The notes below the pieces were generated by a model that searched no databases, was not told where the DNA came from, and saw only the letters and a program-made list of their open reading frames with translations. From Flavobacteriaceae bacterium NBU2977 (GTDB lineage Bacteria; Bacteroidota; Bacteroidia; Flavobacteriales; Flavobacteriaceae): DNA of 64,000 nucleotides. Where the stretch lies: contig JAIOUW010000001.1 in NCBI GenBank assembly GCA_019931105.1, positions 682,001-746,000 on the forward strand. The letters are read 5' to 3'. Shown here one piece after another: positions 3,393 through 53,777 of this stretch. Numbering within the stretch: position 1 is the first letter of the stretch; each line of letters begins with the position of its first letter. Both the position numbers and the translations under genes were made by a program.

Positions 3393-3890
3393 TTAATTAT
3401 CGGTTTTTCTTAAATTCATAAAAGCATCGCCATCGTAGGTCGTATAATTTACCTTTAATGCGTTTACTTTACGCAACTCTTGTTTAATGTCCGATATCAG
3501 ACCCATACCTGTACGCTTATCAACTTTTAGTGAAATGGTGGCATATGGCCTTAAATGTGCTGGCATCTTGCCAATCTGTTCGAGCACATAGGTACCAATA
3601 TCGCTCACTTCGGCATATTTGTCGTTCAATTGAATTTTTGGTTCGGATCCGAAAACTGCGCTATATTTTTCTGTAGGTCTCCCCACATGAATATAGATGA
3701 TGCGATCTTTCTTTTCCATTTTTTTGACCTCACTGGCATTGGGCAGTTCATTGGCGACTTTCAATGTTGAATCTTTCATAACCGTTACCGTCATAAAAAA
3801 GAACAGAAGCATAAAAACAATATCTGGAAGTGAAGCGGTAGACACTGGAGGAACTCCGCCATCTGTCTTGTTGGAATATTTTATCATCAT
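3393..3890 (-). CDS. ExbD-type biopolymer transport protein, second pair, short form
   Basis: A 165-residue ExbD/TolR family protein: a short cytoplasmic N-terminus, one transmembrane helix (about residues 23-42, LPDIVFMLLFFFMTVTVM) that carries the conserved Asp used for proton coupling, and a periplasmic domain. It is a clear paralogue of the protein at 5447-5929: the helix and the segment GLISDIKQELRKVNALKVNY are nearly identical. It lies 8 bp downstream of the long-form ExbD at 3899-4507, so the two are cotranscribed. No ExbB accompanies this pair, so it would have to use the ExbB encoded at 7028-7777 or a distant one. Confidence 0.93.
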   Translation of the reverse strand: MMIKYSNKTDGGVPPVSTASLPDIVFMLLFFFMTVTVMKDSTLKVANELPNASEVKKMEKKDRIIYIHVGRPTEKYSAVFGSEPKIQLNDKYAEVSDIGTYVLEQIGKMPAHLRPYATISLKVDKRTGMGLISDIKQELRKVNALKVNYTTYDGDAFMNLRKTDN

Positions 3891-3898
3891 GTATTGGT

Positions 3899-4507
3899 TT
3901 ATTTGATTTCGGCCTCCGATAATTTTTGTGGATAGCGTCTTTTGATAGTTTCAATTTTCTCTTTAAGTTTTGCCTTTCTACCCTTTGAGGTGACATTGAG
4001 GTATTCAGATTCCATATCGGTATATTTTACCCCATATAATTTTAACGCTTCTCGATTTCTCAATTGATTATAGGCACCGACCAATTCGTTTTGTATGGCT
4101 ATAAAGGTGGCATAACCAGTATCCCGTTCGCTGCTAAGCGAAATAACCGCTTTGTTCGGGTTTTCGGAAGAAAATACACTTCTTTCCCCCTGACAATAAT
4201 CACAATAGTGCTCTGAGTCTAGAGTAGCACCTCCATTATCGATAAATGCGACTGCGATCCTTCTTAAATCAGTAATATCAACCAATTCATTATCGACGAG
4301 AATCTCATTATTGTGATTGACCTGTACGAGTAGTATGTTTTTATCATTATAGGGCAATGGCGGCGATATATCAATCGGCGAAAGCATACGATTAAAACCG
4401 ACATCGGTCTCGATACTGGTGGTCACTAAAAAGAAAATCAATAATAAAAATGCGATATCGGCCATTGAGCCCGCATTTACCCCTGGTGTTTCTCCCCTGT
4501 TTTTCAT
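3899..4507 (-). CDS. ExbD-type biopolymer transport protein, second pair, long form with CxxC
   Basis: A 202-residue ExbD/TolR family protein with a transmembrane helix at about residues 14-31 (MADIAFLLLIFFLVTTSIET). I chose the ATG at 4507 over the upstream ATG at 4585 because it gives exactly the length of the paralogue at 5956-6564 and begins with a matching N-terminus (MKNRGETPGVNAGSMADIAF against MPRRAGAPEVNAGSMADIAF). The periplasmic domain has an insert carrying C102-x-x-C105 (CDYC). The paralogue has CTYC at the same place, so a disulfide or metal site in this ExbD subtype is likely. The gene precedes the short-form ExbD. Confidence 0.92.
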   Translation of the reverse strand: MKNRGETPGVNAGSMADIAFLLLIFFLVTTSIETDVGFNRMLSPIDISPPLPYNDKNILLVQVNHNNEILVDNELVDITDLRRIAVAFIDNGGATLDSEHYCDYCQGERSVFSSENPNKAVISLSSERDTGYATFIAIQNELVGAYNQLRNREALKLYGVKYTDMESEYLNVTSKGRKAKLKEKIETIKRRYPQKLSEAEIK

Positions 4508-4682
4508 ACTTAAGTGGTTTATGTATTGGACAATACTATTTTTGCCCGCCAGGCAGGTGTTGAAAACATGTGAATTCTGGGGCACTAAATGTTGCTCTAG
4601 GAAGGAAAGGTTGTTTTAAGGGAACATTTACCAAGCATTTCCCAACCAAAAAGTAGCAACTTTCGTGCCACGACCACTAATA

Positions 4683-5363
4683 TTAAAGGATATAAAATAT
4701 GAAACCTACACGCAAAGGCTTCATTTCAATGGGTTCACCGTCAATGGTGATATCATCCTTAAAAATGCTACTCAAGGCATAATAGACGTGGGCGTTGAAA
4801 GTATTCCATCCAAAACTGAATGTCAACCCATATTGAAATTGGCGCACATCGCCGTTGGAGAACGATATTTTTTCACTTTCGGTAACAAATTTTGACCTAC
4901 TTGCAAAAACATATCCCAATTTCACCCCGGTATATATTCTCCAAAACTTATATTCTTCGAGAGTGGAGTTTCTCCAACGATACTCTATCGGAAGTTCAAT
5001 CAAGTGGTTTTCTATCTTACTTCTCTTAAGATCCACATTACTACCTACCGGGGAATAAGTAATAACACCGTTGATTTCCTCAGCTTTCATATTTGAATAA
5101 TAGGAATTGACAGCATAGCCCAAACCTAATCCAAATGCCCTTGTTCTGCTCCGATTGATGGGAAAATCCCTGACTAGACCACCTTGAAGGCCATATGATA
5201 AGTTACGCTGGGTAATATCGTTGGGTTTGTTCCTAACAAAATTATAGGTAATGCCCACATAGAATTGATCTTCCAAATAATTAGTATCGAGCGGTTTCGA
5301 AATACCTTGGGCAGACACCTGAGAGGCACAATAAAGAAGTAAGATTGAGAAAACAAATCTCAT
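4683..5363 (-). CDS. PorT-family outer-membrane beta-barrel protein
   Basis: A 226-residue protein with an N-terminal signal peptide (RFVFSILLLYCASQVSAQ) and alternating beta-strand patterns that end in an aromatic-rich strand (LRVGFIFYIL), as expected of a small outer-membrane barrel. It resembles PorT/SprT proteins of Bacteroidota (FYVGITYNFV, YGLQGGLVRDFPINR, HLIELPIEYRWR, YTGVKLGYVFASRSKF). PorT is needed for type IX secretion in some relatives, but the family also has members without that role, so I do not assign the symbol. It sits between two ExbD pairs on the same strand, downstream of a terminator-like hairpin at 5393-5424, and may be cotranscribed with the second pair. Confidence 0.85.
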   Translation of the reverse strand: MRFVFSILLLYCASQVSAQGISKPLDTNYLEDQFYVGITYNFVRNKPNDITQRNLSYGLQGGLVRDFPINRSRTRAFGLGLGYAVNSYYSNMKAEEINGVITYSPVGSNVDLKRSKIENHLIELPIEYRWRNSTLEEYKFWRIYTGVKLGYVFASRSKFVTESEKISFSNGDVRQFQYGLTFSFGWNTFNAHVYYALSSIFKDDITIDGEPIEMKPLRVGFIFYIL

Positions 5364-5392
5364 AGTATTAAAGTTACAACAATTGATAGCAC

Positions 5393-5424
5393 AAAAAAAC
5401 GCTCCAAATAAATATTTAGAGCGT
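5393..5424 (-). terminator. Rho-independent terminator after the ExbB-ExbD-ExbD operon
   Basis: On the minus strand the arms ACGCTC and GAGCGT flank an AT-rich middle that can pair further, followed by seven T residues. It lies just downstream of the ExbD stop at 5447 and upstream of the PorT-like gene. It should end the first ExbB/ExbD transcript and separate it from the PorT-like gene and second ExbD pair. Confidence 0.75.
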
Positions 5425-5446
5425 CTTTGGTTCTTTAATAACTAAT

Positions 5447-5929
5447 TTAATTGATGTTGTTGAAGGCATCGCCTTCATACGTAGTGTAGTTCACCTTTAA
5501 GGCATTGACCTTACGCAATTCCTGTTTAATGTCAGATATCAATCCCATATTTGCATTCTTATCGACCTTAAGTGAAGTGGTCAATACATTTTGAAGTTCT
5601 TGGGCCTTTTTGGCACGTTCCATCAAAATAAAATCACCGACCTCCGAAGGGCTTGCAAACTTATCGTTCAACTGAATCTTCGGCTCACTACCGAATGTAC
5701 TTTGATATTCTTGGGTAGGGGCACCCACGTAAATGGTGATTACCCTATCCTTTTTCTCAAGCTTTTTTATTTCACTGGCATTCGGCAAAGTATTCTCTAC
5801 TTTGACCGTACTGTCTTTCATTACCGTTACGGTCATGAAAAAGAACAAAAGCATGAAAACGATATCAGGCAAAGAGGCAGTCGATACCGCAGGTAGCTCT
5901 CCACTCTTTTTCTTGGCAAATTTTGACAT
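5447..5929 (-). CDS. exbD: ExbD-type biopolymer transport protein, first pair, short form
   Basis: A 160-residue ExbD/TolR family protein and stator partner of ExbB in the inner membrane, which couples the proton gradient to TonB-dependent outer-membrane transport. It has one transmembrane helix around residues 20-40 (LPDIVFMLLFFFMTVTVMKD) with the conserved Asp, then a periplasmic domain ending in KQELRKVNALKVNYTTYEGDAF. It is the last gene of an operon with ExbB (7028-7777), a four-helix membrane protein and the long ExbD. The intergenic gap to the long ExbD is 26 bp, and a terminator hairpin follows. Confidence 0.94.
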   Translation of the reverse strand: MSKFAKKKSGELPAVSTASLPDIVFMLLFFFMTVTVMKDSTVKVENTLPNASEIKKLEKKDRVITIYVGAPTQEYQSTFGSEPKIQLNDKFASPSEVGDFILMERAKKAQELQNVLTTSLKVDKNANMGLISDIKQELRKVNALKVNYTTYEGDAFNNIN

Positions 5930-5955
5930 AATATTATCTTCTTTATAAAAATCGT

Positions 5956-6564
5956 TTAATTCGACGTAGAAGTTTCCGCCTCGGAAAACTTTTGAGGGAA
6001 CAAATCTTGAATTCTTTTCACCTTCTCCTTTAGTTCGTCCCTAACGCCGCTCGGTGTTTCCGGATTAAGATACGTCGCCTCCATGTCGGTAAAATCTTGA
6101 CCATATAAGCGTTGTGCCTCACGATTTCGCAAGTCGTTATATGCACCCACAATTTCGTTTTGAACCGTAATATAGGTACCGTACTTGGTCTCCCTATCAT
6201 TTTTTAAGGAAATAATGGCCTTGGTGGGATTATCTGAAGATTCCGCATCTTTCTTGCCCTTACAATAGGTACATGTACCATCACCATTATTGTCCAGGAA
6301 ATCCATTGCCTTAACTCTAAGCTCTTTGAGGCCTATTATATTATCATCGGCGAGCAATTGACCATTTTTATTGATCAATACCTGAAATATATTTTTCTGC
6401 TTGATAATAACATCCTCTTCCGGTGGTTCAATCGGCGGCAACATACGGTCCAAACCTGCGTCAGTCTCAATCGTGGTGGTCACCAAGAAAAAGATCAACA
6501 ACAAGAATGCGATGTCGGCCATCGAACCGGCGTTTACTTCTGGTGCTCCTGCTCTTCTAGGCAT
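5956..6564 (-). CDS. exbD: ExbD-type biopolymer transport protein, first pair, long form with CxxC
   Basis: A 202-residue ExbD/TolR protein with a transmembrane helix at about residues 14-31 (MADIAFLLLIFFLVTTTIET) and a periplasmic domain that is longer than a classical ExbD (about 140 residues). The extra segment has C98-x-x-C101 (CTYC) next to a Lys-rich loop, and the paralogue at 3899-4507 keeps both cysteines. It lies 7 bp downstream of the four-helix membrane protein at 6572-7003. Bacteroidota commonly have two ExbD-like proteins per ExbB; the CxxC is the unusual part. Confidence 0.94.
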   Translation of the reverse strand: MPRRAGAPEVNAGSMADIAFLLLIFFLVTTTIETDAGLDRMLPPIEPPEEDVIIKQKNIFQVLINKNGQLLADDNIIGLKELRVKAMDFLDNNGDGTCTYCKGKKDAESSDNPTKAIISLKNDRETKYGTYITVQNEIVGAYNDLRNREAQRLYGQDFTDMEATYLNPETPSGVRDELKEKVKRIQDLFPQKFSEAETSTSN

Positions 6565-6571
6565 AATTTTA

Positions 6572-7003
6572 TTATTTACTGGTCATTTTTTTCAAGCCTC
6601 CATATAACATTGCCCCTACGGCAACAATGGTAAGGATAAAGAACACATTCAGTCCCATTCCAATCTTCTTGACAGTAGATTCATTCGACATGGCCATATA
6701 TTCATCGGCAACGTCGGTACCACTAGACAATACATAAGAAATAATAACGACCACTGCCAAGCCCGCCACTCCGAAAAGTGTTCTTTTCAAACCGGCTGGA
6801 TTGGAGAATACGTTCTTTAATCCGAAGATCAAACTTGCGGCGACAGCGATTGCCAATAGAATATAGGTTATCCAGAACATGGCGTTCATCGCACCGCTTT
6901 GAGCGGCCTCGTTGGCAGGCATCTCTTTTTCGGGCAACATAAACCACAGTACCGCACCTATCAGACCCAATACTATTAATGCTATTTTAACTATTTTGTA
7001 CAT
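6572..7003 (-). CDS. Small four-helix inner-membrane protein of the ExbB operon
   Basis: A 143-residue protein of unknown function with hydrophobic segments at about residues 5-23, 42-64, 78-98 and 115-138, and short polar loops. The N-terminus (MYKIVKIALIVLGLIGAVLWF) reads as a membrane anchor. It lies between ExbB and the long ExbD with gaps of 24 and 7 bp, so it is very probably made with the energy-transducing complex. I know of no function for it; a fourth subunit or assembly factor is the simplest guess from position. It is not an ExbB, since it lacks the long cytoplasmic loop. Confidence 0.88.
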   Translation of the reverse strand: MYKIVKIALIVLGLIGAVLWFMLPEKEMPANEAAQSGAMNAMFWITYILLAIAVAASLIFGLKNVFSNPAGLKRTLFGVAGLAVVVIISYVLSSGTDVADEYMAMSNESTVKKIGMGLNVFFILTIVAVGAMLYGGLKKMTSK

Positions 7004-33256: not shown

Positions 33257-33300
33257 TTCTACATTTGTAGAATTAAAATATTTGTTCTATGTTTGTAGAA
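33257..33300 (+). promoter_or_regulatory. Two BlaI-type operators on the blaI/M56 promoter
   Basis: Two 16-bp palindromes, TTCTACATTTGTAGAA (33257-33272) and TTCTATGTTTGTAGAA (33285-33300), start 28 bp apart. They overlap the likely promoter: TTTG at 33264-33267 as -33, then 20 bp, then TATGTTTG at 33288-33295 as -7. A repressor on either site would block polymerase. The start codon of the regulator is 20 bp further on, so the operon is probably autoregulated. Confidence 0.75.
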
Positions 33301-33320
33301 CATTCTCTAAAAACGTAGAA

Positions 33321-33686
33321 ATGCAACTATCAAAATCGGAAGAAGAATTAATGAATTTGCTCTGGAAACAGAAAAAGGCCTTTATGAAAGACCTACTGGA
33401 TGCCTACCCCGAGCCAAAACCTGCGACGACAACGGTCGCCACGCTTTTGAAGCGCATGACCGATAAAGGTTTCGTCAATTATAAAAGTCTTGGCCGATCT
33501 AGGGAATATTACCCGTTGGTCAAAAAGAAAGACTATTTCTCAAAACACGTAAACGGACTCATAAAAAACTTTTTCAATGACAGTGCCAGTCAGTTTGCCT
33601 CATTCTTTGCGCAGGAAACAAACCTTAGCAAAACAGAATTGGAAGAATTAAAAAAATTGATCGATAACGAAATAAAAAAGAAATAA
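33321..33686 (+). CDS. BlaI/MecI-family repressor
   Basis: A 121-residue winged-helix repressor. The N-terminal DNA-binding domain runs from SEEELMNLLWKQKKAFMKDL through PATTTVATLLKRMTDKGFVNY; the C-terminal half (about 75-120) is the dimerisation domain, which in BlaI is cut when the M56 sensor fires. An upstream in-frame ATG at 33165 would reach across the operators, so I place the start at 33321, where the family N-terminus MQLSKSEEELMNLLW begins. It is followed after 2 bp by its M56 partner. Confidence 0.93.
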   Translation: MQLSKSEEELMNLLWKQKKAFMKDLLDAYPEPKPATTTVATLLKRMTDKGFVNYKSLGRSREYYPLVKKKDYFSKHVNGLIKNFFNDSASQFASFFAQETNLSKTELEELKKLIDNEIKKK

Positions 33687-33688
33687 CC

Positions 33689-36127
33689 ATGGTCATTTTC
33701 CTTGTAAAATCCGCTGCATGCATGCTCTTTTTCTTTCTTTTCTATAAGCTTTTGCTGGAACAAGAAAGCATGCATAAATTCAAACGGTTCTATTTATTGG
33801 CAGCCCTTGTGATTTCTTTTATAATACCGAGTATTGTCTTGACGGAATATGTTGAAGTACGGCCCGCAACATCATCCTTGCTCACCACCATACCTTCTGC
33901 AACCCCTGAAACAAGCCAAAATCCAGTAGCCGCCCAAGCCATAGACCCATTTGATTGGACGTTGTTTCTTTGGATTGTTTACGGAATAGGTTTCCTCGGT
34001 TTCGCAATCCGGTTCTTCGGTCATCTTTTTCAGATACGCAAAAGAATCAAGAAAAACCCCAAACTAAAAGGTCTTTTTATCACAAAAGTGCTTTTGTTGG
34101 AACAATTACCTCCGCATACTTTTTTCAGTTACATCTTCGTGAACAAAAAGAAATTCGAAAACAACGACATCCCCGAAGAAGTGATGCTCCATGAAGAAAC
34201 CCATGCCAAACAGCGGCATAGTATCGATGTGCTGTTCGTCGAATTTTTACAGATTTTATTCTGGTTCAATCCGCTTGTGCATTTGTATAAGACGGCCATA
34301 AAACTCAATCACGAATTTTTGGCGGATAATGCCGTACTAAAAAAGAACCAAAATAGCACCAACTATCAAAATACATTGCTCTCGTACTTATCACACGATA
34401 GCGCCGAAAAATATCAGTCGACCGGCATCGCGAATGCCATTAATTATTCATCAATCAAAAAACGTTTCACCATTATGAAAAAACAAACATCGAAGAAATC
34501 TATCTTGTTAAGAAGCCTTTTGCTAATACCCTTATTGGCCTTGCTGTTATTTGGATTTAGCTCAAGTAAACTGGTTGTAAAAAAGACCAATTCCGCCCTT
34601 GAAATTACGAATTACACCGCGAGAAGCTTAAGTATCGAAATTCTAGAAAACGGCAACTACTTAATTGAGGAAAAGAAGGCTAACAAGGATAACTTTAAGG
34701 AGGTGATCAATCAATTCAACACAGATGTCAAACCTGAAATTAGAAATAAGATTTTGAACATTCATTTGACCTCTTCCAAAGAAATTGCCAATAGTGAAAT
34801 CTGGTTTGTATATAATTCCGTTTTAGAATATGGCTTTTACCGTATAGTCACACCTAATCAAGAGATTATTAGAGAAAAAGGAAATAAGCCCTTTGCTGAT
34901 GAAGTTGACAGGTTAAATGAATTGGCACCCAATTTGATTGAAAAAGGATCTGACAATCTAATTAAATCAAGACTGAATCAATTTCAAATTCTCGTAACCA
35001 GTACCCCAAAAGGAATAAAATTAAATTGCATAGAAGGTTGTGCATGGTTAGAATTAGATTTCACGCTCGATACCGGAGCAAAGCAATTACTGGATAAATA
35101 TGGCATGGTGGATTCAAGACAAGTGAACGAAAAAAACACTGACAATCTCCTGATTTCATTCGAAAAAACAGGAGAAAAAATATTACTCCATGGACTCAAA
35201 GGGACTGCCTGGAATAAACTAAGCTTTTCCCTTGCTGAAAATAAACCTCAAAAAATCAATCAGTTAGGCAATGTAACCGAGCAACAAAACTTTTCAAAAG
35301 AACAAATTCTCATCGCTGAAGTTATCGAAATCCGTATTAATAAATCAGGGCAAGTTCTGATAAAAGACAAAATAGTCTCCATGGACGAATTGCCAACATA
35401 CCTATCAAAAATAAATACACACCTTTCCTTCGAACAGCGAAAAAAAACTGTTCGATCCATTGTAAGAGTGGATACCAACACCCCAAAAGATGTAATACAA
35501 AAAGTGGATCAGATCCTAACAGAGTATGGTTGCGCCACGATTAATATTATAGGTGCGGAGGATTCGCCTCGGTCAAAAGTTCAAAGTAGTGCGACCCGCA
35601 AGGAAATGAAGGAGTACAATGCCTTGGCCAAAAAGTACAACGAGATGGATCGCTCGAACATGATCATCAAAAAGAAGGATGTCGAAAGGCTAAAATATAT
35701 CTATGGTCTAATGTCGGACAAACAACGTGCCGATGCCGAACCTTTTCCCGATTTCCCAAAACCGCCACCACCACCGCCTCCTGCCCCTGTTCCCGATATA
35801 GAGGATGTAAAGGAACTTCCTCCACCTCCTCCTTCACCAAGAATGCATAAAGGACGGTCATCAGATGTTCCTCCACCTCCGGCCCCAAGAGGGGTAAATG
35901 AGATTATCGAGGTTCCACCCCCTCCTCCTCCGCCAAAAACGCCATTGGACCATGTCATAGAAATGGCAAAAAAAGATGCGGTTTTCTACTATCAAGACGA
36001 AAAAATAAGCTCTGATAGGGCGATTCAAATTCTGAAAGAGAACGATAAGATCAATATCGATTCACGCGCGAACGGAAAGAGGCCTATTGTAAAATTATCG
36101 ACGGCGCCAATCGTAATCGAAAACTGA
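33689..36127 (+). CDS. Very large M56 (BlaR1-like) sensor peptidase with extracytoplasmic modules
   Basis: An 812-residue membrane protein. The M56 peptidase part has four helices (about 5-22, 34-50, 92-112 and 272-292) and the zinc motif HEETH at 168-172, with EFLADNAVL as the third ligand region. After helix 4 come about 520 extracytoplasmic residues: an ExbD-like segment at about 312-388, a module with GCAW (430-475), a related one with GTAW (486-530), a second ExbD-like segment at 545-621, a helical region, three proline runs at 685-750, and a conserved tail (FYYQDEKISSDRAI). It is probably a BlaR1-type sensor that relieves its own BlaI. No beta-lactam-binding domain is seen, so the signal is unknown. 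Confidence 0.9.
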   Translation: MVIFLVKSAACMLFFFLFYKLLLEQESMHKFKRFYLLAALVISFIIPSIVLTEYVEVRPATSSLLTTIPSATPETSQNPVAAQAIDPFDWTLFLWIVYGIGFLGFAIRFFGHLFQIRKRIKKNPKLKGLFITKVLLLEQLPPHTFFSYIFVNKKKFENNDIPEEVMLHEETHAKQRHSIDVLFVEFLQILFWFNPLVHLYKTAIKLNHEFLADNAVLKKNQNSTNYQNTLLSYLSHDSAEKYQSTGIANAINYSSIKKRFTIMKKQTSKKSILLRSLLLIPLLALLLFGFSSSKLVVKKTNSALEITNYTARSLSIEILENGNYLIEEKKANKDNFKEVINQFNTDVKPEIRNKILNIHLTSSKEIANSEIWFVYNSVLEYGFYRIVTPNQEIIREKGNKPFADEVDRLNELAPNLIEKGSDNLIKSRLNQFQILVTSTPKGIKLNCIEGCAWLELDFTLDTGAKQLLDKYGMVDSRQVNEKNTDNLLISFEKTGEKILLHGLKGTAWNKLSFSLAENKPQKINQLGNVTEQQNFSKEQILIAEVIEIRINKSGQVLIKDKIVSMDELPTYLSKINTHLSFEQRKKTVRSIVRVDTNTPKDVIQKVDQILTEYGCATINIIGAEDSPRSKVQSSATRKEMKEYNALAKKYNEMDRSNMIIKKKDVERLKYIYGLMSDKQRADAEPFPDFPKPPPPPPPAPVPDIEDVKELPPPPPSPRMHKGRSSDVPPPPAPRGVNEIIEVPPPPPPPKTPLDHVIEMAKKDAVFYYQDEKISSDRAIQILKENDKINIDSRANGKRPIVKLSTAPIVIEN

Positions 36128-36147: not shown

Positions 36148-36174
36148 AAAGCCTCGAAATTCGAGGCTTTTTTT
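36148..36174 (+). terminator. Terminator after the blaI/M56 operon
   Basis: Arms AAAGCCTCGA and TCGAGGCTTT around a 3-nt loop, followed by a T run, beginning 21 bp past the M56 stop codon. Confidence 0.85.
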
Positions 36175-36333: not shown

Positions 36334-37434
36334 ATGTTACAAGACTTTTTCATTCTCTGCTCTGGGGCCGATGCGGCCATTTTAAAAACGTGTTCAAAAG
36401 GTGAACAGAACAAGTACGCCGGTATAGGCGCGACCGTTTTCTTCACTGCTGTAATGGCCTTCATTGCCAGTTCTTATGCTCTTTATACCGTTTTTGACAC
36501 TATCTGGTCCTCGGTTTTTTTCGGTTTACTATGGGGATTGCTGATCTTTAACCTCGATCGGTTTATCGTTTCCACTATCAAAAAACGAAACAGTTTCGGC
36601 AGTGAACTTGTACAGGCCTCTCCAAGAATCGTTTTGGCCATCATCATTGCAATGGTCATTTCCAAGCCTTTGGAAATGAAGATTTTTGAAAAGGAGATCA
36701 ATCAGGTGTTGCTCGAACAGAAGAACGAAATGACATTGGCCAACAAGCAACAGCTTGCCCTCCAATACACGCCTGCCGTGGACAAATTGAATCAAGAGAT
36801 CGTTGGCCTTAAAGCGGAAATAGCAGCGAAGGAGGCCGAAACCAATGCACTATACGACACATATATATCGGAGGCGGAAGGAAGGGCCGGAACCATGTTA
36901 TTGGGAAAAGGCCCCGTATATAAGGAAAAACGTGAGAAGCACGATGCCGCATTGGCCGAACTTACAGCATTAAAGGAAACCAACAACGAGAAAATAAAAG
37001 GTATCGAGGCGCAAATTGCCGCCCTGAATACCGAGTATGCCCAGGTAGTGAACGACTCGCAGCCCATAATCGATGGTTTCGACGGACTCATGGCCCGCAT
37101 AAACGCCTTGGGAGAATTGCCGTGGATGCCTTCATTTTTCATATTCCTGTTGTTTTTGGCCATAGAGACCTCGCCTATCATCGCCAAATTATTGGCTCCA
37201 AAGGGTGAATATGACCTAAAATTGGAAGATGAAGAGAGCACCTTAAAAACCTGGGTAACCCAGAAAGTAATGCAGCGTGAAAAATTATTGGCCACAGATA
37301 CCGAACTGAACGAAAAAATCTATGGGGAAATTGCCGAGGAAGAAGCGGTTTACGCCTACAAAAAACAGAAGGCCGAAGAACTATTGAAGTTACAGGCCGA
37401 TGCTTTTCACGATTTACAGGTAAAAAGCCTGTAG
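36334..37434 (+). CDS. DUF4407 membrane protein
   Basis: A 366-residue protein of the DUF4407 type. It has two or three helices near the N-terminus (AGIGATVFFTAVMAFIASSY, IWSSVFFGLLWGLLIFNLDR), a conserved NLDRFIVSTIKK, then a long coiled coil at about 120-250, a further helix (PWMPSFFIFLLFLAIETSPI) and a charged helical tail. The function of the family is unknown. It converges with the Hpt gene with 5 bp between the stops. Confidence 0.9.
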   Translation: MLQDFFILCSGADAAILKTCSKGEQNKYAGIGATVFFTAVMAFIASSYALYTVFDTIWSSVFFGLLWGLLIFNLDRFIVSTIKKRNSFGSELVQASPRIVLAIIIAMVISKPLEMKIFEKEINQVLLEQKNEMTLANKQQLALQYTPAVDKLNQEIVGLKAEIAAKEAETNALYDTYISEAEGRAGTMLLGKGPVYKEKREKHDAALAELTALKETNNEKIKGIEAQIAALNTEYAQVVNDSQPIIDGFDGLMARINALGELPWMPSFFIFLLFLAIETSPIIAKLLAPKGEYDLKLEDEESTLKTWVTQKVMQREKLLATDTELNEKIYGEIAEEEAVYAYKKQKAEELLKLQADAFHDLQVKSL

Positions 37435-51850: not shown

Positions 51851-53404
51851 TTATTGCAACCTGAAGGTAATCGGAACCGAAAACGGCACCTTGACCAACT
51901 CGCCTTTGTGCTTGCCCGGCATCATCTTGGGCAATAGACTGACGATACGTTCGGCCTCGGCCTCCAACAATGCGTCAGGACCCCGTTTTTTTAATTCGGT
52001 CACATGGCCTTGTTCATCGATAATAAAACTAAGGTATACCTTGCCCTGTATGCCTTTTTCTTGAGCTTCTTGGGGGTATTTGAAATGTTGCACAATGTGC
52101 TTTCTCATCATGTCTTGAAAACATTCGGTCTTATCATTTACATTTTCGCAGCCTGGAAAAATGGGCGGTTCATCAACTAGTCGAAAAGGCATCATCTTCC
52201 CATTGCCATCAATTCCAACAACTGTTTCTTCGTCTTTGGATGATTCCGTAATTATCATCATAGTAGCCGAAATTTTTTCGTCATGTCCATCAATTGTAAT
52301 ATAAGAACCATCGTCCGAATGGACATATCGGACAGCATTGCTATTAGCATCTTGTACTTGCACCGCCCAAGTTTTAGGCTTTTTCGAGAGGTTTACCAAT
52401 GAGCTAAATACCAAATTTTTTTCTTCATCCGTTAAATTTTTGATATCACCAACAGCATAAGAAACGAATACATCATATTTTTCTAAATATTTCGTACTGG
52501 ACTTGCTAGACAAGTCGCTTTCCCCTATTTCCGGTGATTCTATTCTTATATTCTCCTGTTCACAAGAGGTATAGACCAACATCCCTAAAACCAAGGGCAC
52601 CAACATCAAATACTTTAATTGCCAAACTTTTTTTGATTTTGCTTTTTGTAACATGACTATTCGTTTTTTGATTAATGAACTTTTAAAAAATTGATTGATA
52701 AAAGAAATGTTCTCGGTCTGAAATATTTGCGAAAGCAAAACTTCGTACTGTTCTTTTTTATGGGTCTTGGCGACGTAAGAATCGGCGATGAACTCGTGCA
52801 GTTCAGAAACCCGTTGCTGATAAACATATACCAAAGGGTTGAACCAACCTATGATACGCATCAACTCAAAAAACAGCAGGTCCCATGAATGTTTTTGCTC
52901 AATGTGTACCAACTCGTGCCGTATGATACTTTGATGTTCCCTTTGCAAAACCTTGTCACCCAAGAAAATGAACCTAAAAAATGAAAAGGCCATTTGACTG
53001 TTCGCAATGACTATTCTTGTGAAATTTGGAAAATATCGAATCTCTCCATTTTTTCGAAGTCGGTAGATCTGAAATAATTTATGGCCAAAGTAAATCGCGG
53101 CCAAGAACATTCCCCCGAACAAAATCGTCTCTCCCCAAGAAATATTGAATCGCGGGCCTTCGGTCAGAGAACCGTTACCGATTGCATCGATATCCGCCAA
53201 GAACATGGGGTACACAAAATACCGTTCGGGCAAAGTACTCCTTAAAGCCTCGATCTTGACCCAGGGAAGCACCAGGGACAATACATAGGTGCCGATCAGG
53301 TACGCACGGTTCCATTGGAAAAAAGTTTCCCTTTTGAGCATAAAATCATAGATGACGAGGAACACCAATTGAAAGGCGATACACTCCAACATATATTGTA
53401 TCAT
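51851..53404 (-). CDS. M56 (BlaR1-like) sensor peptidase with TonB_C-type C-terminus
   Basis: A 517-residue membrane protein with the M56 peptidase domain: helices at about 3-19, 34-51, 92-112 and 272-290, zinc motif RHELVHIEQKHS and HEFIADSYV. After helix 4 lies a short extracytoplasmic region with no beta-lactam-binding domain, then a TonB_C-type domain (GIQGKVYLSFIIDEQGHVTE, VPFSVPITFRLQ), as in other Bacteroidota M56 proteins. It follows BlaI (10 bp between) and precedes the TPR gene. The signal it senses is unknown. Confidence 0.9.
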   Translation of the reverse strand: MIQYMLECIAFQLVFLVIYDFMLKRETFFQWNRAYLIGTYVLSLVLPWVKIEALRSTLPERYFVYPMFLADIDAIGNGSLTEGPRFNISWGETILFGGMFLAAIYFGHKLFQIYRLRKNGEIRYFPNFTRIVIANSQMAFSFFRFIFLGDKVLQREHQSIIRHELVHIEQKHSWDLLFFELMRIIGWFNPLVYVYQQRVSELHEFIADSYVAKTHKKEQYEVLLSQIFQTENISFINQFFKSSLIKKRIVMLQKAKSKKVWQLKYLMLVPLVLGMLVYTSCEQENIRIESPEIGESDLSSKSSTKYLEKYDVFVSYAVGDIKNLTDEEKNLVFSSLVNLSKKPKTWAVQVQDANSNAVRYVHSDDGSYITIDGHDEKISATMMIITESSKDEETVVGIDGNGKMMPFRLVDEPPIFPGCENVNDKTECFQDMMRKHIVQHFKYPQEAQEKGIQGKVYLSFIIDEQGHVTELKKRGPDALLEAEAERIVSLLPKMMPGKHKGELVKVPFSVPITFRLQ

Positions 53405-53414
53405 CGTAAAAGTT

Positions 53415-53777
53415 TTAATTATCGGTTTTCTTTATCTCTTTTAAAATGGATTCCAATTCGGAAAGGCTCAAATCGTTATTCTTCATAAAAAAGGAAACCA
53501 TACTCTTAAAGGAACCCTGAAAATAACCATCGACCAATTTGTTGATGGACTGGTTGCTGTAGTCCGATTTCTTGACTACCGGAAAATACAGGTAACCCTT
53601 ACCCTCTTGCTCGTGATCCACAAAACCTTTACTTTCTAGAATGCGCACTATGGTCGATACTGTGTTGTATGCCGGTTTCGGGTCAGGTAGTTTTTTGATG
53701 ATGGCCGCCACATTGCATTTTTGCAACCGCCATAAAATCTGCATTACCTCTTCTTCGGCTTTTGTAAGTTGCTTCAT
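53415..53777 (-). CDS. BlaI/MecI-family repressor, second locus
   Basis: A 120-residue winged-helix repressor with the DNA-binding domain at about 1-75 (LTKAEEEVMQILWRLQKCNV, AYNTVSTIVRILESKGFVDH) and a C-terminal dimerisation part. It pairs with the M56 gene 10 bp downstream. Three palindromes upstream (53826-53893) are probable operators. Compared with the first BlaI the recognition helix differs (NTVSTIVRILE against TTVATLLKRMT), fitting the different operator sequence. Confidence 0.93.
   Translation of the reverse strand: MKQLTKAEEEVMQILWRLQKCNVAAIIKKLPDPKPAYNTVSTIVRILESKGFVDHEQEGKGYLYFPVVKKSDYSNQSINKLVDGYFQGSFKSMVSFFMKNNDLSLSELESILKEIKKTDN

Follow-up and report, generated by a model that had tools for sequence, protein, structure and literature searches.

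A flavobacterial BlaI/M56 locus with predicted ExbD-type domains in a mosaic sensor ectodomain

Introduction

How a cell knows that its outer-membrane uptake motor works, beyond substrate-specific signalling of the FecA/FecR type, is an open question. It is raised in a particular form by a locus of Flavobacteriaceae bacterium NBU2977, in which a BlaR1-type protease appears to carry a domain of that motor outside the membrane: what would such a protein report, and to whom? With a sensor whose outer part comes from the coupling domain of the motor itself, the question could be put to the test on a single repressor, a single promoter and a defined operator. Here we describe this locus within a 64,000-nucleotide stretch of the genome (the window; contig JAIOUW010000001.1, positions 682,001 to 746,000).

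In the BlaR1/MecR1 systems the sensor cleaves its repressor BlaI directly (PMC9834060), and the locus studied here resembles them in its M56 protease with an HExxH motif, its adjoining BlaI gene and the palindromic operators at its own promoter. Such pairs can also serve a purpose other than the response to beta-lactams, as with PetP/PetR of cyanobacteria, which belong to the BlaI/BlaR1 family and respond to copper, the accessible part of the source mentioning no ExbD-like ectodomain (PMC7896320). BlaI-family regulators are further listed among polysaccharide-induced ones (PMC5613140). In the open-licence literature we found no description of M56/BlaR1 proteins with ExbD-like domains, in keeping with an initial annotation of this DNA that knew of none; in the accessible part of PMC12578637 “M56” denotes the number of a reagent, and BlaI regulators do not occur.

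Results and Discussion

A BlaI-family repressor and an M56 protease form the operon

The genes at the centre of the locus, with the parts of the protease that lie in or near the membrane, are as follows.

33321..33686, + strand: blaI-family repressor gene, 121 aa (Pfam, structure match, orthologue start)
33689..36127, + strand: M56 sensor protease, 812 aa (ORF, Pfam, relatives)
34151..34474, + strand: M56 peptidase domain, residues 155-262 by Pfam, HExxH at 168-172 (Pfam, motif)
34502..34561, + strand: last membrane helix, residues 272-291, without an acidic residue (sequence)
36148..36170, + strand: predicted intrinsic terminator, AAAGCCTCGAAATTCGAGGCTTT plus a T run (consensus scan)

That the 812-residue product is an M56 peptidase sensor, as the initial annotation had it, is borne out by the Pfam M56 family (PF05569; 69.8 bits against a cut-off of 31), its sole credible Pfam match, by the motif HEETH with NHEFLAD downstream, and by a BlaI gene that ends 2 bp upstream. 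The NCBIfam blaR1 model scores 48.3 bits, its cut-off being 400, and blaR1_generic covers residues 156-301 only. Neither a penicillin-binding (transpeptidase-type) sensor domain nor the TonB C-terminal domain (PF03544) was matched in Pfam at E values up to 1. With BlaR1 as the model, the domains that follow the last helix would lie outside the inner membrane. The repressor matches the Penicillinase_R domain (PF03965) at 101.5 bits and MecI/BlaI structures at E 2e-11; its start was taken from orthologues, the listed 173-aa ORF beginning too early. An alignment with the cleavage site of S. aureus BlaI, read by eye, keeps the P1' Phe and not the P1 residue.

The predicted terminator (10 pairs, 5 of them G-C) ranked first in a scan that is weak in bulk, yielding 9 sites compared with 5.2 in shuffled sequence, and its position directly after the protease gene indicates that the operon most likely consists of blaI and the M56 gene. 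Pfam assigns the neighbours to an M20 peptidase, a YjdM protein on the opposite strand and a DUF4407 membrane protein. No ExbB/TolQ gene is found among them, and the operon holds no ExbB, TonB or transporter gene. Across 45 loci (44 related ones and the window) blaI directly precedes the M56 gene in 43, an M20 peptidase lies within four genes in 38, and a DUF4407 gene lies at most two genes downstream in 37 (36334-37434 in the window). The DUF4407 gene was considered as an operon member and rejected on the terminator and on six loci with an intervening gene, which leaves it a conserved neighbour. Unlike BlaR1/MecR1, the window sensor lacks a penicillin-binding domain and has a mosaic ectodomain, with no resistance gene at the locus; the annotation “BlaR1” in these genomes does not mean beta-lactam resistance.

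In a genome of the same genus both genes are frame-broken (L037), with a blaI of 21 aa and an M56 gene split into two overlapping ORFs, either through decay or through assembly errors.

Two segments of the ectodomain are predicted to adopt the ExbD periplasmic fold

Behind the last helix the protein is built from the following predicted modules.

34610..34858, + strand: ExbD-like domain 1, residues 308-390 (profiles, fold of model)
34979..35116, + strand: GCAW module, residues 431-476 (GCAW at 450), with Cys 447 and 451
35132..35269, + strand: GTAW module, residues 482-527 (GTAW at 505), the second copy
35312..35554, + strand: ExbD-like domain 2, residues 542-622 (profiles, Pfam below cut-off, fold of model)
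35582..35776, + strand: EYNALAKKYN module, residues 632-696, helical in the model and tandem in many relatives
35783..35932, + strand: proline-rich linker, residues about 699-748
35933..36124, + strand: conserved tail, residues about 749-812, predicted alpha-beta-beta-alpha-beta-beta (model, relatives)

Taken as single sequences the two ExbD-like domains give a weak signal: domain 1 matches NCBIfam TolR over 308-385 at E 0.2, and domain 2 matches PF02472 over 542-622 at 18.6 bits, below the curated cut-off of 25.4. Profile comparison with hhalign, in contrast, relates domain 2 to true ExbD/TolR proteins of related genomes with a probability of 89.8% (E 1.7e-6) and domain 1 to domain 2 with 96.6% (E 5.5e-10), domain 1 alone against true ExbD being not significant (2.7%). 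The domain 2 profile picks up domain 1 (E 7.3e-5) together with ExbD-sized proteins (E 1.7e-6 to 1e-3), and 17 of its 23 members match PF02472 at E up to 0.1. A same-genus relative reaches 30.1 bits with PF02472, above the cut-off.

AlphaFold2 models of residues 300-539 (mean pLDDT 76.9) and 536-812 (mean pLDDT 87.0) lead to the same family. ExbD periplasmic structures take ranks 1-5 in Foldseek for both models, with TMt values against the chains of 8p9r of 0.81-0.82 for domain 2 and 0.74-0.75 for domain 1. VIA-align superimposes the domain 2 model on E. coli ExbD (8p9r) with Z 10.3 and an rmsd of 1.8 Å over 74 residues and the domain 1 model with Z 8.6 and 2.4 Å over 73 residues, in both cases 1-3 Z units over the best unrelated rows; TolR (5by4) is also matched, at Z 8.7. 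The initial annotation had seen an ExbD pattern at about 312-388 and 545-621, and the models together with profile homology make the predicted ExbD periplasmic fold of 308-390 and 542-622 a firm assignment. A merely coincidental likeness between common alpha/beta arrangements is highly improbable. Pantothenate kinase and MOC1, alpha/beta proteins with no relation to ExbD, do reach Z 6-7.6, but for either domain the two programs rank ExbD/TolR at the top, the evidence from sequence profiles and from Pfam cut-offs independently points the same way, and M56 relatives of other families that score 28.2-44.0 bits with PF02472 contradict such a reading.

The membrane helix of ExbD bears an acidic residue, Asp25 in E. 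coli. The last membrane helix of the M56 protein, ILLRSLLLIPLLALLLFGFS, has none, as is the case in all 24 relatives in which a script could place this helix. The protein is therefore not itself an ExbD, having neither the acidic helix nor an ExbB neighbour; it shares with ExbD/TolR (PF02472) the predicted fold and a distant sequence homology, and differs from them in carrying two copies per chain behind a protease, with no ExbB/TolQ gene alongside.

True ExbD/TolR genes are also clustered elsewhere in the window, at about 3393-7000 on the - strand, without a link to the M56 operon.

3432-3845, - strand: true ExbD/TolR, PF02472 match (Pfam)
4073-4495, - strand: true ExbD/TolR, PF02472 match (Pfam)
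5477-5899, - strand: true ExbD/TolR, PF02472 match (Pfam)
6145-6549, - strand: true ExbD/TolR, PF02472 match (Pfam)

The remaining modules complete a mosaic

By sequence and model, the ectodomain is a mosaic of two ExbD-type domains, the GCAW/GTAW pair, the EYN module, a proline linker and a tail. The initial annotation had already taken the GCAW and GTAW modules as related, which fits the stand-alone relatives with their two copies, and had pointed to the proline runs and the conserved tail, of which we count four runs of 4-7 prolines and find the region 742-812 kept in most relatives. It did not mention the EYNALAKKYN module (632-696), the cysteine pair (447/451) or the twin operator (33258-33319) described below.

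The GCAW pair is present in 20 of 299 same-family genomes, distributed over four long ORFs (the window genome, G031, G160 and G256), 15 ORFs of 131-176 aa and one fragment; the three fused relatives are M56 proteins. Both cysteines of the first module occur in 8 of 19 sequences and neither in 11, never one alone, and since these sequences are mutually related the pairing does not represent 19 independent events. All four M56-fused copies have both; the 11 copies that lack them stand alone. Pfam gave no match to the pair in the window protein, L054 or L056 and a chance-level one in L055. The fold search with the 300-539 model was filled by its ExbD part, and the comparison of the tail named no family, so that absence from these match lists is no sign of a new fold in either case. 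Modules that follow GCAW in L161 and L046, or the membrane part in L172, were tried as ExbD copies and rejected (hhalign not significant, best 10.6%), as were stand-alone GCAW genes as BlaI targets, with an operator at most 300 bp upstream in 0 of 15. In one genome (L172:1658-6840) such a gene stands between an M20 peptidase gene and genes for DoxX-like, BlaI, M56 and DUF4407 proteins, in one same-strand run.

On the other strand of the linker, an 85-aa glycine-rich ORF (35701-35958, - strand) is the mere reverse of the proline runs.

The ectodomain is reshuffled among close relatives

Relatives were drawn from whole genomes (39 of 60 relatives; residues 532-812 as query, 141 of 299 same-family genomes), and profiles were built. 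The closest relative (L036) is 82% identical over residues 1-301 and 80% over 542-812, with other sequence between; its M56 part, blaI and promoter are retained and its ectodomain is reshuffled. Of the modules whose presence in close homologues the initial annotation had put in question, ExbD-like domain 1 and the GCAW pair are missing here, whereas the part from domain 2 onwards is held in common. A stretch of L036 that looked carboxypeptidase-regulatory-like by eye was dropped, as Pfam matched nothing there with E up to 0.1.

EYN modules and tails occur in none to three copies across the relatives. Among the 18 orthologues that the relatives search supplied, 4 have an ExbD-like domain, so that many sister sensors do without it. 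To judge from these sequences, modules of the ectodomain have been gained, lost and duplicated in evolution, whereas the M56 part has been kept and the tail mostly so, and the sharply differing domain sets of close relatives make the window architecture one of many. The domain 2 profile matches in 79 of 299 same-family genomes, in 38 of them within ORFs of 570-939 aa and in the rest within shorter ORFs, nearly all ExbD-sized, and every one of the 30 long ORFs fetched (one cut by a contig end) has an M56 domain in front.

The blaI promoter lies within a twin palindromic operator

Three palindromes precede blaI.

33258..33271, + strand: predicted BlaI operator 1, TCTACATTTGTAGA, whose TTTG can serve as the -33 box (palindrome scan, promoter consensus)
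33286..33299, + strand: predicted BlaI operator 2, TCTATGTTTGTAGA, containing TATGTTTG, a TAnnTTTG -7 box (palindrome scan, promoter consensus)
33306..33319, + strand: a further palindrome, weaker than the other two, TCTAAAAACGTAGA, directly ahead of the blaI start codon (palindrome scan)

Allowing at most 2 mismatches, a scan of the window for the operator gave 5 matches where 0.5 would be expected. In 46 of the 48 M56 loci examined the blaI start could be located by pattern, and 36 of these 46 promoters have twin TCTA...TAGA palindromes, spaced 13-15 bases apart (14 in 28 of them), the second of which holds TAnnTTTG in all 36. TAnnTTTG is the flavobacterial -7 box (PMC9723704), and TAnnTTTG/TTTG the -7/-33 consensus (PMC2483708); with these boxes inside the palindromes, the predicted operators contain the promoter. 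This arrangement, a twin palindromic operator enclosing the -33 and -7 boxes, is to be read from sequence as a new feature of the blaI promoter and sets the locus apart from BlaR1/MecR1.

The twin pattern was found at 130 sites in 125 of 299 same-family genomes (0 in the reversed control), and in a draw over the order in 17 of 296 genomes, all of the same family. Among 51 of the 130 sites looked at, 46 lie just upstream of blaI, one at a contig end and four before envelope-lipoprotein-like genes. One of the latter, in G020 (L264:3349-4572), is a PF00144 beta-lactamase-family lipoprotein gene (215 bits) with the operator 74 bp before it; the others are, in G173, a ChaN/Tiki-like gene that stays below threshold and a second gene with no assignment, and, in G225, a DUF4886-like gene just below cut-off. 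Of the G173 twin sites, one is part of another system next to it, which has a short M56 protein. The window genome has the twin operator only at its own blaI promoter. Its operator-like matches with up to 2 mismatches number 37, the own promoter included, compared with 9+12 in the reversed control. A wider regulon was considered and set aside, both one-mismatch sites outside the own promoter falling inside coding regions; among the sites with two mismatches, an intergenic one (L209) is found 51 bp ahead of a gene for a lipoprotein.

Ton-derived ectodomains recur on M56 proteins of the phylum

In a phylum sample of 296 genomes, 13 have a domain 2 profile match at E up to 1e-4. The four long ORFs fetched from outside the family are all M56 proteins and exceed the PF02472 cut-off of 25.4 bits (28.2, 44.0, 39.3 and 41.2 bits), and at the two of these loci that were looked at (L320, L321) a BlaI-like gene, read by sequence, lies directly upstream. 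Besides its ExbD domain, L320 carries TonB_C twice (95.8 bits), and its Plug match stays under the threshold (19.3 against 23.9 bits); the window sensor has no TonB_C. A second M56/BlaI-type pair lies in the window (51854-53404 and 53415-53777, both - strand), and its M56 protein ends in TonB_C (54.8 bits), with no ExbD match, unlike the sensor at 33689-36127; with that sensor both it and L320 share the M56 protease, the BlaI partner and a Ton-derived ectodomain. The window genome holds another match of M56 with Plug (24.5 bits, cut-off 23.9). TonB_C, Plug and ExbD on several M56 proteins make Ton-derived ectodomains a recurrent theme of these proteases, and this phylum-wide pattern came as a real surprise. 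BlaR1-TonB fusions were reportedly noted by Chu et al. 2007.

The initial annotation had pictured a mosaic sensor in which Ton-type domains feed a BlaI circuit. An ExbD-type mosaic joined to that circuit holds up, and its search among M56 proteins was answered by the 30 same-family ORFs, the four M56-ExbD proteins outside the family and TonB_C on L320 and the second window protein, the last two findings and the spread beyond the family speaking for the label Ton-type; the particular architecture, given how sharply it varies, does not stand as a fixed type.

What the sensor might report

We read the locus as an autoregulated BlaI/M56 envelope-sensing operon with the ExbD-like domains on its input side, to which we would give a probability of roughly 55%. 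The sensor most likely reports the state of the envelope, be it the Ton motor or peptidoglycan, to BlaI. The periplasmic dimer of ExbD takes up the D-box strand of TonB (PMC10907165), and the ExbD-like domains of the sensor might pair in the same way and either take up an extended periplasmic peptide, such as a strand like the TonB D-box, or touch peptidoglycan. The resulting change in the ectodomain would pass through the membrane helices, whereupon the M56 site would cleave BlaI and so free the blaI promoter. With the operon itself as the only clear target in the window genome, induction would raise sensor and repressor together. Against this reading stand the non-significant direct comparison of domain 1 with true ExbD, the small share of orthologues with an ExbD-like domain, the P1 residue of the BlaI cleavage site that is not kept, and an operon with no ExbB, TonB or transporter gene. 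More speculative, and on balance doubtful, is a general form of the reading: the repeated joining of Ton force-chain parts (ExbD periplasmic domain, TonB_C, plug) to M56/BlaI proteases in the phylum would have made a class of sensors for the engagement of the Ton motor. The window protein would be its ExbD form, whose paired ExbD-like domains bind strands of the TonB type and in this way signal to BlaI that TonB is free or idle.

Other readings place the input or the output elsewhere. The ExbD-like domains could act as in TolR and hold or probe peptidoglycan; the protein would then sense the cell wall in a manner akin to BlaR1 and be unconnected with the Ton motor. The match to TolR 5by4 would suit this, as would the finding that ExbD itself switches state and touches peptidoglycan (PMC10771500), the twin operator before a PF00144 gene in G020, and the peptidoglycan fragment that sets off beta-lactam resistance by way of BlaI in B. 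licheniformis (PMC3305447). However, the PF00144 target is known from that one genome, and M56 relatives bear TonB_C and Plug-like domains, not known wall-binding ones, so that we hold the proposal as a tentative possibility. A self-only regulon means that the sensor protein may also be the output, and taken further the M56 protein would itself be the effector, a proline-rich periplasmic tether or force transducer anchored in the inner membrane, with M56/BlaI as its thermostat. The terminator after its gene, the TonB-like proline linker, the M56 paralogue with TonB_C and the finding that no further intergenic site in the window genome matches with one mismatch or none speak for such a role; it nevertheless seems unlikely, as that scan rests on sites with at most one mismatch and weaker ones are possible, twin operators precede envelope-protein genes in three other genomes, and the window protein has no TonB_C match. 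We are similarly disinclined to see the real detector, for redox or metal, in the GCAW pair with Cys 447/451. Its all-or-none cysteines, their presence in every M56-fused copy, the copper-responsive PetP/PetR of the same family and the best NCBIfam score of BlaI, which is to CopY_TcrY and far under cut-off, are set against the rarity of the pair, which most M56 relatives lack, and the 11 stand-alone copies without cysteines.

Short M56 proteins behind blaI

A different type of locus was met in three genomes (L301, L302 and L266, in G173, G160 and G102), where the M56 protein behind blaI is short, at about 290-326 aa, and has a C-terminus rich in His and Glu. After these genes come small secreted proteins, several of them His/Glu-rich and some having their own twin BlaI operators, and to judge from these sequences the short-M56 loci look like a metal-responsive BlaI/M56 system.
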